A DNA stretch of 6,160 nucleotides from an uncultured Gemmatimonadota bacterium (GTDB lineage Bacteria > Gemmatimonadota > Gemmatimonadetes > Gemmatimonadales > Gemmatimonadaceae). The notes beneath the pieces were generated by a model. It was not told where the DNA came from, made no database searches, and saw only the letters and a program-made list of their open reading frames with translations. A program made the translations under genes and the position numbers. Shown here in pieces: positions 1,223 to 5,729 of the stretch. Location: assembly GCA_946479995.1 (NCBI GenBank), contig CAMLIU010000109.1:1-6160 (forward strand), read 5' to 3'. The stretch's first letter is position 1. Every line of letters starts with the position of its first letter.

Positions 1223-1306
1223 CCCGCGAATCGGCACCCGGCAGAGAGGCACGCTTCTCGCCAATTGCGGCAGACAGAGCGGTACCGACCAGATCATCCT
1301 GCACTG

Positions 1307-3058
1307 ATGACGCGGCCAGCAATCGAACAGGAGCTGCCGGACTCCCCCCACCCGGCCGGAGAGACACTTCGCAAGGCCCCCACTGGAATTCCGGGGGTCG
1401 ACGCCATCACCCGGGGCGGTCTTCCCGAAGCGCGTACCACGCTGATTCTCGGCGGCCCCGGCGCCGGCAAGACGGTGCTCGCCCTCGAGACGCTGGTCAA
1501 TGCCGCCCGGCTCCAGCATGAGCCGGGCATCTTCGTGGCATTCGAGGAAAGCAGCCGGCAGATCATCGCCAACGCCGCCACCTTCGGGTGGGACCTCCCC
1601 TCGCTCGAGCGGGAGAAGCTCTTCTTCCTCGACGCACGCGTGTCGCCCGTGATCGTCCAGTCGGGCGACTTCGACATCACCCTCATGCTCGCCGGCCTCG
1701 AGACCAAGGCGCGCGAGATGGGGGCGAAGCGCATCGTGCTCGACGGCCTCGACGTGCTGCTCACCCTGCTCGACGACCCGGTGCGGGAGCGGCAGGAAGT
1801 GTATCGGCTGCACGACTGGCTGCAGCGCTCGGGACTCACCGCCGTCATCACCGGCAAGGCGACCGACGCGGATCGTCACGGCGCTGAGCGTTACTCATTC
1901 ATGCAGTTCATGGTGGACGCCGTGATCCTGCTGCACCATCGCATGGTGAACCGCGTTTCCCTGCGCGGCCTTCGTGTCGCCAAGTACCGGGGCACGGGAT
2001 TCGACGAGGGCGAGTTCCCGATGGTGATCTCTTCCAGCGGCATCCAGGTCGCCACCTTCGGACCCGCGATCCTCACTCACGAGGTGTCGCACGAGCGCGT
2101 GTCCACCGGCATCTCCCGGCTCGACAACATGCTCGACGGCGGCTACTACCGTGGCTCGTCGGTGCTCGTCTCGGGCGCTCCGGGCGTCGCCAAGACGACG
2201 CTCGCCGCCGCCTTCGCCCGCGCCGCCTGCCTCCGCGGCGAGCGGGCGCTCTTCGTCAGCTTCGACGAAGCCGCCGACCAGCTCGTCCGCAACCTGCAGT
2301 CGGTCGACGTGGACCTCGCGCCCTTCGTCGCGTCGGGCCTCCTCGAGATCCAGGGAGTGCGTTCGGAGTCGCGGAGCGCCGAGGAGCACCTCATCGACCT
2401 GCAGCGCCGCATCCGTGAGTTCGAGCCGAGCACACTCGTGCTCGATCCCATCTCCGCGCTCGGCAAGACGGGTGGCGAGATTGCCGCCGTGCACTCGTCG
2501 CTTCGCCTTCTCGACTTCGCGCGGGCCACGGGCATCACCACGCTGTCCACGAGCCTCATGTCGCAGGCGGCCGAGGTGGAGGCCACTGCCATGGAGATCT
2601 CCACGATCGCCGACACGTGGATCCACCTCGCCTACGCCATCCACGGCGGCGAGCGCAATCGCACGCTCACCGTGGTGAAGTCGCGGGGCATGCGGCATTC
2701 CAACCAGGTGCGTGAGCTGATCCTGTCCGACGAGGGCATCACCCTCGCCGACGTGTTCACCGCGGGCGGCGAGGTCCTCGTCGGCACGGCGCGGTGGGAG
2801 TTCGAGCGCGAGATGCGCGGACGCGCCGAGCAGCAGCGCGTGGAGCGCGAGCAGCGCCGGCGGATCGCCGAACGGAACGTCGCGCGGATCGAGGCGCAGA
2901 TCGCCGCCCTTCGGGCCGAGCTCGAGGCGCAGCAGTCGGAGGCCGAGGCGGTCGGTGTCAACGAAACCCTTGCCGCCGAGCTCCGCCACGACCAGCAGGA
3001 GACGCTGCGGCGCCTGCGGTTCGGCGTGAACGACGCGCCCCGCTCTCCCGTTCCCTAG
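1307..3058 (+). CDS. kaiC: KaiC-like double-domain RecA-family ATPase/autokinase
   Basis: This is a 583-residue KaiC family protein with tandem RecA-like domains. CI (about 22-255) has Walker A GGPGAGKT (49-56), the catalytic pair E80/E81 and Walker B ending at D146. CII (about 262-495) has a variant Walker A, GAPGVAKT (290-297, Ala before the Lys), the pair D320/E321 where KaiC has two Glu, and Walker B D380. The phosphorylation segment is kept: T427, S432 and T433 align with T426, S431 and T432 of Synechococcus KaiC, in the context EISTIADT. The C-terminus (about 495-572) is a long charged, probably coiled-coil helix in place of the short KaiA-binding tail. I chose ATG 1307; a TTG at 1265 in frame would add 14 residues, but neither has a clear Shine-Dalgarno. 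It sits 5 bp upstream of kaiB and likely forms an operon with it. Autophosphorylation and ATPase activity are inferred from the motifs. Confidence 0.9.
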   Translation: MTRPAIEQELPDSPHPAGETLRKAPTGIPGVDAITRGGLPEARTTLILGGPGAGKTVLALETLVNAARLQHEPGIFVAFEESSRQIIANAATFGWDLPSLEREKLFFLDARVSPVIVQSGDFDITLMLAGLETKAREMGAKRIVLDGLDVLLTLLDDPVRERQEVYRLHDWLQRSGLTAVITGKATDADRHGAERYSFMQFMVDAVILLHHRMVNRVSLRGLRVAKYRGTGFDEGEFPMVISSSGIQVATFGPAILTHEVSHERVSTGISRLDNMLDGGYYRGSSVLVSGAPGVAKTTLAAAFARAACLRGERALFVSFDEAADQLVRNLQSVDVDLAPFVASGLLEIQGVRSESRSAEEHLIDLQRRIREFEPSTLVLDPISALGKTGGEIAAVHSSLRLLDFARATGITTLSTSLMSQAAEVEATAMEISTIADTWIHLAYAIHGGERNRTLTVVKSRGMRHSNQVRELILSDEGITLADVFTAGGEVLVGTARWEFEREMRGRAEQQRVEREQRRRIAERNVARIEAQIAALRAELEAQQSEAEAVGVNETLAAELRHDQQETLRRLRFGVNDAPRSPVP

Positions 3059-3063
3059 CGCGC

Positions 3064-3373
3064 ATGGCGGACGCAGTCGTCCTTCGGTTGTACCTCGCTG
3101 GCGAGGGCCCGAACTCCATCGCCGCGCGCGCGAACCTCCTCCGCCTGCTTGCTGGCGTGGAGCGGTCGTCGTATTCGCTCGAGGTGGTGGACTGCCTGCG
3201 CGATCCGCTGCGCGCGCTCCAGGAGGGCGTGCTCGTCACGCCGACCCTCGTGCGCGTGACGCCGCAGCCCGTCGTCACCATCATCGGCACCCTGCGCGAT
3301 TCCGGCGGGGTGATGGACATCCTCGGCCTGCGAGCCGGTGGTGCGGGCCCTGTTTCCACCTCGGGAGCGGCGC

Positions 3374-3387
<14 letters not shown>
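3064..3387 (+). CDS. kaiB: KaiB-like thioredoxin-fold protein
   Basis: The protein has 107 residues. The KaiB core runs from about residue 5 to 89: a first strand and loop VLRLYLAGEGPNS (6-18), a helix, a second strand LEVVDCLRDP (39-48), the conserved VTPTL (58-62) that marks the cis-proline segment, and IIGTLRD (73-79). KaiB binds the CI ring of phosphorylated KaiC in cyanobacteria and switches fold to do so; here the same partnership is inferred from adjacency. The last 18 residues (Gly/Ala/Ser-rich) fall outside the family core and partly overlap the kinase gene. ATG 3064 lies 5 bp after the kaiC stop and is the first Met before the KaiB core. No Shine-Dalgarno is visible, so translation is probably coupled to kaiC. 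Confidence 0.9.
3363..3367 (+). promoter_or_regulatory. Ribosome binding site deciding the kinase start
   Basis: GGGAG ends 6 bases before GTG 3374. Two other in-frame GTG codons at 3338 and 3341 would add 11-12 residues but have no comparable site. This favours 3374 as the start, giving a 14-bp overlap with the kaiB reading frame. Confidence 0.55.
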
Positions 3388-4651
<1,264 letters not shown>

Positions 4652-4654
4652 CCG

Positions 4655-4660
4655 AAGGAG
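4655..4660 (+). promoter_or_regulatory. Shine-Dalgarno of the selenoperoxiredoxin gene
   Basis: AAGGAG lies 7 bases before the TTG at 4668. It is the strongest ribosome binding site in the window. It fixes an uncommon TTG start and shows that the region upstream of the in-frame TGA is meant to be translated, which argues against a decayed gene. Confidence 0.8.
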
Positions 4661-4667
4661 ACTCCCG

Positions 4668-5150
4668 TTGAGCAAGCCCTCGAACGTCGTGAAGGCCGGC
4701 GAGATGGCCCCCGAATTCTCCGCCGCCACCGACGACGGCAGCACCCTCCGCCTGCGCGACCTGCGCGGCAAGTGGGTGGTCCTCTACTGGTATCCGAAGG
4801 ACGATACCCCTGGCTGAACCATCGAGGCGTGCTCGTTCCGAGACGCCTTCCCCCGGTTCGGGGGAATCGACGCAGTGATCCTCGGCGCCAGCGGTGACTC
4901 GGTGGAGTCCCACCGGAAGTTCAAGGAGAAGTACGACCTGCCGTACACCCTGCTCGCCGACGAGAGTCACGAGATCGCCCAGGCGTACGGCGTGTGGGAG
5001 CAGAAGTCCATGTTCGGGAAGAAGTACATGGGCATCCCCCGCACCACCTTCCTCATCGCCCCCGACGGTCGCATCGCCCGGGTCTTCGAGAAGGTGAACC
5101 CGCTCGGCCACGCCGCGGAGGTCGCGGAGGCTATCGAAGCGCTCCGCTAG
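4668..5150 (+). CDS. bcp: Bcp/PrxQ-type peroxiredoxin with selenocysteine at the peroxidatic position
   Basis: Read through the TGA at 4815-4817, this frame encodes 160 residues, close to the 156 of E. coli Bcp. Such enzymes reduce hydroperoxides in the cytosol using thioredoxin-type donors. The active-site motif is PKDDTPG-U-TIEACSFRD (43-59). Sec50 replaces the peroxidatic Cys, C55 stands exactly five residues later like the resolving Cys of Bcp, and R125 (in IPRTTFLI) matches the conserved catalytic-site Arg region. Translation would run from TTG 4668 to TAG 5148-5150. The frame is intact on both sides of the TGA, the upstream Shine-Dalgarno is strong, and SECIS-like hairpins follow the TGA. 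The gene starts 16 bp after the kinase stop, so it is probably in the kai operon. A UGA-terminated 49-residue product, a pseudogene or a C-to-A sequencing error are the alternatives. Selenocysteine insertion is inferred; Bcp family identity is clear. Confidence 0.85.
4815..4817 (+). other. In-frame TGA read as selenocysteine codon
   Basis: The TGA occupies the codon where the Bcp family has the peroxidatic Cys, one base from TGC. Flanking codons give T-P-G before it and T-I-E-A-C after it. Five other genes in the window end in TGA, so a general reassignment to Trp or Gly is unlikely. Confidence 0.82.
4826..4847 (+). promoter_or_regulatory. Candidate bacterial SECIS stem-loop
   Basis: GGCGT (4826-4830) pairs with ACGCC (4843-4847), G4831 is a single-base bulge, and CTCG (4832-4835) pairs with CGAG (4839-4842), leaving the loop UUC. 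The stem has nine pairs, extendable by A4825-T4848. The upper stem begins eight bases after the UGA, and the G4835-U4836 at the tip is about 18 bases after it. E. coli fdhF has a comparable bulged nucleotide and a loop starting with G about 19 bases after its UGA, recognised by SelB. The bulge here is G, not U, and the loop is tight. The element lies inside the coding sequence, as bacterial SECIS elements do. Confidence 0.65.
4848..4866 (+). other. Second strong hairpin just downstream of the candidate SECIS
   Basis: TTCCCCCG (4848-4855) pairs perfectly with CGGGGGAA (4859-4866) around a GTT loop, giving eight pairs. If G4855-C4859 opens, the loop GGTTC starts 37 bases after the UGA, at the outer limit described for bacterial SECIS. 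It directly abuts the first hairpin and could stack on it, slow the ribosome, or be the alternative SECIS. It may also be a by-product of GC-rich coding sequence. Confidence 0.45.
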
Positions 5151-5289: not shown

Positions 5290-5478
5290 ATGTCCGACAC
5301 CCCAGATCGCATGCGCAACGCCAGAGCCGAGCGCTACACGGCGCTCATCATCGAGCTGCTCCCCGCCATCCGCGAGCTGCGTCCCCGTCTCAACGAGGAC
5401 CAGCTGATGGAGGCTGCCCGTCGCATGGCCGAGTACCGCCTGATCGACGAAGGCCTGTGGTCCGGTCAGGGTCGATGA
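5290..5478 (+). CDS. Small hypothetical protein, 62 residues, helical, similar to its neighbour
   Basis: I do not recognise this family. The protein is charged and probably all-helical, with no signal peptide, membrane segment or cysteine. Its core, about residues 25-50, reads IRELRPRLNEDQ followed by LMEAARRMAEYRL. The same pattern (R..., L, D, L, A, R-M-A at matching positions) recurs in the next gene product, so the two look like diverged paralogues. ATG 5290 is supported by GGGAGA (5278-5283) six bases upstream. Its TGA overlaps the ATG of the next gene (ATGA at 5475-5478), which indicates translational coupling. Coding status rests on the Shine-Dalgarno, the coupling and the shared motif. 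Confidence 0.7.
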   Translation: MSDTPDRMRNARAERYTALIIELLPAIRELRPRLNEDQLMEAARRMAEYRLIDEGLWSGQGR

Positions 5479-5729
5479 CCGACAGGCCCCGCACTCGCGC
5501 CGAGTGCACGAACTCCTTCATGGCGCCGCGGCCGTCGCGCAGCGCACCCTCGCTCGACGAGCGTGTCGAGGCGAGGACCCTCGACATCGCCAACCGGCTG
5601 CGCTTCGTCTGCAGCCACCTCCCCGACGACGAGCTGCTCGACCTCGCCACGCGCATGGCCGTCATCGAGGTGAAGTACGCCGGCGGCAAGGAGCTGCATC
5701 TCCCCCGCCGCCGCGCCGCCAACGGCTGA
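5475..5729 (+). CDS. Small hypothetical protein, 84 residues, paralogue of the preceding gene
   Basis: I do not recognise this family. After a basic, probably disordered N-terminus (1-27), the core from about 30 to 62 is LDIANRLRFVCSHLPDDELL then DLATRMAVIEVKY, matching the preceding protein at the R, L, D, L, A and R-M-A positions. The tail is basic (LPRRRAANG). The ATG overlaps the upstream TGA by ATGA, favouring 5475; a second in-frame ATG at 5520 would remove 15 residues of the low-complexity N-terminus. The pair may form a heterodimer, but that is only a guess from coupling and similarity. Confidence 0.68.
   Translation: MTDRPRTRAECTNSFMAPRPSRSAPSLDERVEARTLDIANRLRFVCSHLPDDELLDLATRMAVIEVKYAGGKELHLPRRRAANG

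Follow-up and report, generated by a model that had tools for sequence, protein, structure and literature searches.

Gene organization of the locus

The window, by which the whole analysed stretch of 6,160 nucleotides is meant, comes from an uncultured Gemmatimonadota bacterium and contains argF (278-1222, TGA stop at 1220-1222), a gene whose KaiC-like product has two KaiC ATPase stretches (1265-3058), a gene for a protein with a KaiB domain (3064-3387), a PAS histidine kinase gene (about 3338-4651, TGA stop at 4649-4651), bcp on the forward strand (4668-5150), two overlapping small ORFs without a Pfam match (5290-5478 and 5475-5729) and, after them, the start of gcvT. The three genes between 1265 and 4651, possibly a Kai-type signalling module, separate argF from bcp, two genes that are close neighbours in 36 of the 51 relatives compared. 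A scan of viral contigs found nothing.

When TGA is translated as selenocysteine (Sec, U), the bcp coding sequence runs from a TTG start codon (4668-4670) to a TAG stop (5148-5150) and gives a protein of 160 residues with a single U, residue 50. The TGA codon (4815-4817) is the sole interruption of the gene, with no further internal stop or frameshift. According to the read-through translation and the alignment, this codon occupies the peroxidatic position in a PxxxTxxU motif (catalytic stretch YPKDDTPGU-TIEAC), and the TGC codon of the resolving Cys55 follows at 4830-4832. With Cys put for U, the protein matched the Pfam family AhpC-TSA (PF00578, E 7.4e-39) and reached 144.6 bits with the NCBIfam model of thioredoxin-dependent thiol peroxidase (PRK09437.1), passing its cut-off of 140. 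The AlphaFold2 model, likewise calculated with Cys for Sec, is confident (mean pLDDT 92.7) and places residue 50 within helix 48-65. A Shine-Dalgarno-like AAGGAG, read from the sequence, is located at 4655-4660, 7 nt before the TTG. Because most Sec-containing relatives have their start codon 42-48 codons ahead of U, the GTG at 4689, 42 codons before U and without a comparable Shine-Dalgarno sequence, is a possible alternative start. The earlier note had described a full-length Bcp frame with TGA at the peroxidatic Cys codon, an intact resolving Cys55, an uninterrupted C-terminal half and a TTG start behind a Shine-Dalgarno sequence, and all of these features were found again, with GTG 4689 as a possible other start.

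Truncated database entries

The product of standard gene calling at this locus is a 91-aa ORF (4875-5150, forward strand). When the read-through protein was used as a query, full-length homologues with up to 72% identity among those listed were obtained. The peroxidatic position is Cys in 119 of the 123 full-length homologues: 118 have Cys at both the peroxidatic and the resolving position and one combines the peroxidatic Cys with Gln at the resolving position, whereas one has Trp and three fall outside the motif. The Trp-containing protein is P0078, a JGI entry, as would result from a TGA translated as Trp. The 91-aa ORF as a query listed 120 proteins, among which 115 were new (P0122-P0236; 99 to 64% identity). 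Nearly all of the new matches (112/115) are shorter than 125 aa, being truncations of about 91 aa, as had been expected of automatic annotation, and in 93/115 the start is identical to that of the ORF in the window. From the truncation point alone we infer that the truncated entries would carry UGA. These entries of about 91 aa, some of them named 'peroxiredoxin Q/BCP', lack the active site and most probably represent Sec-Bcp genes interrupted at the UGA.

Conservation of the UGA codon in Gemmatimonadota

Some Bcp match was present in 394 of 395 Gemmatimonadota genomes. Among the matches listed, an in-frame TGA was found in 20 relatives, in 19 of them at the catalytic codon and in one (L129) elsewhere. 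The 19 genomes all belong to one family (179 genomes), and a search of this family added nine more, all with TGA at the catalytic codon. Altogether, at least 28 genomes of one Gemmatimonadota family, in addition to the window, carry TGA at the peroxidatic Cys codon. This distribution bears out the view that a random nonsense hit on exactly this codon is improbable. In the alignment of close homologues that the earlier note had proposed, UGA in the 28 relatives (53-65% identity) is aligned to the conserved Cys, and the same column holds Cys in 49 orthologue rows, which are the better-scoring fetched loci and hence a subset of the Cys forms. L129 was entered as a Cys form. L197, whose contig begins past the codon, was dropped, and L028 was left out of the alignment (A1) and the tree. 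The latter locus (L028:2373-2435) is a TGA-bearing Bcp recorded as 'bacterium isolate LB3_2', belongs to a different lineage and lacks the CCYCGGUUCGRGG stretch described below. Two distant peroxiredoxin-like matches, G002:C12:65529-65948 and G001:C103:5835-6245 (35% and 31% identity), contain one in-frame TGA each and are possibly further Sec peroxiredoxins. The ArgF proteins nearest to that of the window, searched in this family only, are those of G075 (89% identity), G365 and G399 (88%) and G397 (87%).

A hairpin restricted to the Sec forms

A putative SECIS hairpin (4849-4865, forward strand) lies 37 nt after the UGA. Its 6-bp stem is formed by 4849-4854 with 4860-4865, its apical loop is GGUUC (4855-4859), and the folding energy of 4847-4868 is -13.8 kcal/mol. 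The underlying sequence CCY-CGG-UUC-GRG at codons +12 to +15 is common to all 29 Sec rows, with CAG for CGG in L130, which changes the loop to AGUUC. All six pairs are present in 29/29 Sec rows vs 0/49 Cys rows, counts that do not represent independent events because the rows are kin. The five-pair core together with the GGUUC loop occurs in 28 of the 29 Sec rows and in none of the 49 Cys rows. The six pairs (columns 35-40 with 46-51) are formed in 174/174 cells, and in 25 cells both sides are changed, a value reached in 0/500 shuffles. The pair 39/47 is U-A in 15 rows and C-G in 14, and the pair 36/50 is C-G in 18 and U-A in 10. Pairing falls to 33-75% when the partner is slid, all six pairs survive codon randomisation in a mean of 2.3% of controls (0.9-4.5% per row), and the folding z amounts to -2.87 in Sec rows vs -0.64 in Cys rows. 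Moreover, the exchange at 39/47 alters the amino acid at codon +15 (Glu or Gly), and therefore the protein follows the RNA at this position. The bacterial SECIS model, as given in the sections of PMC13188914 consulted, has the loop N1-G-[G/U]-N-N2 and a spacing limit of 37 nt. The GGUUC loop fits this pattern and the spacing is exactly at the limit, so the predicted element agrees with the published bacterial rules at their very edge.

RNAalifold also predicts another hairpin directly upstream (4826-4847, forward strand; 4826-4830 with 4843-4847). Its codons are more uniform in the Sec rows (Ala GCG 28/29, Asp GAC 26/27). It was rejected as a SECIS element: 42 of the 49 Cys rows keep three to five of its five pairs, and the structure is therefore partly forced by coding. 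A covariance model (R1) of the 63-nt stretch gave 84.5 bits for the window, itself in the training set, and up to 52.5 bits for Cys orthologues, which are also scored because the stretch is coding sequence. Since R1 gives no clean separation of Sec and Cys forms, the pair counts were relied on.

Selenocysteine machinery in the relatives

The machinery was counted in the 28 TGA-bearing genomes of relatives, taking tRNA-Sec as a match to RF01852 with E at most 6e-13 and SelA, SelB and SelD as matches over their cut-offs. The cut-off of Rfam itself was passed by 314 of 395 genomes, including G344 and G432, and also by 5/14 control genomes; it therefore admits other tRNAs, and the limit used here is stricter. 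With this limit, tRNA-Sec was found in 23/28 genomes (not in G308, G344, G414, G412 and G432), SelA in 24/28 (not in G356, G414, G412 and G397), SelB in 23/28 (not in G356, G259, G414, G433 and G434) and SelD in 25/28 (not in G308, G344 and G412). At least one component was present in all 28 genomes and at least three in 23: four in 18 genomes, three in five, two in three (G356, G308, G344) and one in two (G414, G412). Several of the matches are pieces at contig ends, and the selD of G414 is cut by a contig end. In nine compared genomes (G356, G259, G179, G075, G397, G377, G362, G370, G215) selD is followed by the tRNA-Sec gene at a distance of about 90-135 nt, and because of this proximity both can vanish from an assembly together.

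For comparison, the 20 top-scoring Cys-form genomes apart from G002, which was examined later, were searched; they are not a random draw. The four components occur in 5/20, always in the same five genomes (G112, G010, G030, G087, G033). All four are also present in the Cys forms G075, G399, G398 and G002, which are close to the window or to Sec forms. The co-occurrence of Sec and the machinery is thus partly a clade-level feature, because Cys-form neighbours of Sec genomes often retain the machinery. An independent-pairs test of the Sec form against the sel genes on the Bcp tree offered two starred pairs only, and for SelA alone some pairings were reversed; Fisher values for the same data take no account of kinship.

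SelD has an in-frame UGA of its own in 23 of 25 cases (G314 has none, and G434 is a piece without that part), and it is predicted to be itself a selenoprotein in most TGA-bearing genomes (L233-L250, L252). Behind the selD UGA, the sequence GGUC-CGGG[U/C]-GACC was found in 18 of 19 loci examined. It is a potential hairpin, which is part of the minimum-energy fold in 7/19 only.

Exchange of Sec and Cys and loss of the resolving Cys

In the tree of 78 Bcp rows, constructed with the U/C letter left out, the Sec and Cys states require eight changes, at least four when counted by starred branches, in either direction. In Sec and Cys forms alike, argF is found within the fetched bcp flank (36/51 loci, L081-L131) and so is gcvT (18/51), and the forms therefore largely represent one orthologous locus. 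The Cys at +5 is missing in 5/29 Sec rows (Ser in L127, L130, L190 and L191; Val in L131) vs 0/49 Cys rows, which corresponds to three changes on the tree and leaves too few independent pairs to weigh an association with Sec. Sec forms are not alone in this loss, since outside the 49 rows L066 (Arg) and one of the 123 full-length homologues (Gln) are Cys forms that show it as well. The proteins of L130 and L131 have no Cys whatever. The others have a Cys at +54 (L127, L191) or +33 (L190), which might serve in place of the resolving Cys.

Discussion

The bcp gene of the window almost certainly encodes a Sec-containing peroxiredoxin of the Bcp/PrxQ type in a Gemmatimonadota bacterium, with the sel machinery documented in its relatives. 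The replacement of the peroxidatic Cys by Sec, which the earlier note had proposed, is supported by the UGA in 28 other genomes, by a covarying hairpin absent from the 49 Cys orthologues and by sel machinery in the UGA-bearing genomes. Judging from the comparative evidence and from known bacterial SECIS elements, SelB with Sec-tRNA-Sec would bind the hairpin at 4849-4865, and the ribosome would then read the UGA at 4815-4817 as Sec. By analogy with the PrxQ family, Sec50 would attack the peroxide and Cys55 would resolve the selenenic acid, with subsequent reduction probably by thioredoxin.

A single in-frame stop on one contig may also result from a recent nonsense mutation, in a pseudogene or otherwise, or from a sequencing error at the Cys codon. 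However, the same codon is TGA in the 28 related genomes, 93 further protein clusters agree as judged by truncation point alone, the gene shows no second lesion, and the covarying hairpin is confined to the Sec rows. This explanation is consequently very improbable. An organism-wide change of the code, in which UGA stands for Trp or another ordinary amino acid, could be suspected from the Trp of P0078, where TGA was perhaps translated with another code. It is even harder to sustain, because TGA terminates argF, the histidine kinase gene and both small ORFs (5476-5478 and 5727-5729), and because the homologues almost uniformly have Cys at this position. Similarly, re-initiation at GTG 4875, giving a separate C-terminal protein of 91 aa, may be invoked on the grounds of the ORF start shared by the new database matches, but it scarcely merits belief, as neither the peroxidatic nor the resolving residue, nor the N-terminal portion of the fold, would be present in such a product, the supposed start GTG is an in-frame Val codon (offset +20) at which 41/49 Cys forms also have Val, and the part before the UGA stays open in the Sec rows as an alignable Bcp N-terminus.

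With regard to known systems, the Sec-containing Bcp/PrxQ of the window belongs to the same peroxiredoxin superfamily as PrxU of Eubacterium acidaminophilum, a described Sec form reportedly published by Sohling in 2001. It is not a PrxU equivalog: with NF040737 (peroxi_PrxU), which presumably models the Eubacterium acidaminophilum protein, it reached 64.4 bits against a cut-off of 270. With the Bcp/PrxQ thiol peroxidases (PRK09437.1), whose solved relatives include 5enu, 3gkn and 5iiz, it shares the PxxxTxxC-type motif and the resolving residue five positions on, but differs in having Sec for the peroxidatic Cys. Sec-containing peroxiredoxins were already known, as the earlier note had said. 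In the consulted sections of the respective papers, Prx of COG1225 (Bcp) with TxxU is an established selenoprotein family (PMC9312934), 91 Prx selenoproteins are reported from 78 organisms (PMC5029168) and 253 from ocean samples (PMC2398784). As far as these sections and those of PMC13188914 describe it, the COG1225 family shares with the window protein the AhpC/TSA-Bcp fold, the Sec three residues after Thr and common Cys orthologues. Those sections name no member from Gemmatimonadota; a further difference is that Sec and Cys replace one another here at a single argF-linked locus and that the usual resolving Cys is missing from some of the Sec forms.

The term 'Gemmatimonad' is absent from the main texts of PMC13188914, PMC5029168 and PMC9312934, and a search of titles and abstracts gave no report of Gemmatimonadota selenoproteins. 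Gemmatimonadota are not mentioned in PMC5330540, are mentioned for SELO homologues only in PMC3281104, and are named without connection to Sec in the consulted parts of PMC8318568 and PMC9727886. According to the portions consulted, selA, selB and selD occur in 47-50% of hadal sediment MAGs (PMC8938466), and SelA and SelB in bins of sponge symbionts from various phyla (PMC5649159); the tables of these two papers may already include Sec genes of Gemmatimonadota MAGs. The Sec-Bcp enzyme type is therefore known, and what is new, as far as the literature was searched, is apparently its spread with 4-8 Sec/Cys switches in a Gemmatimonadota family, together with Sec forms without the resolving Cys.

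A more tentative proposal, to which we give somewhat less than even credence, is that Sec and Cys repeatedly replaced each other at the locus and that some lineages, once they had gained Sec, dropped the resolving Cys, leaving a one-Sec Bcp that would be recycled by an outside thiol, with a two-hairpin SECIS whose SelB-binding loop would sit at the outer spacing limit.

Summarizing, public Bcp records of mostly unnamed bacteria consist of pieces of about 91 aa, for which the correct reading would restore a peroxidase and add a requirement for selenium. The occurrence of one argF-linked gene as Sec and Cys forms in close relatives offers a natural comparison for asking what advantage Sec has over Cys, and with those Sec forms in which the usual resolving Cys is missing, the recycling of a seleno-peroxiredoxin can be tested directly.
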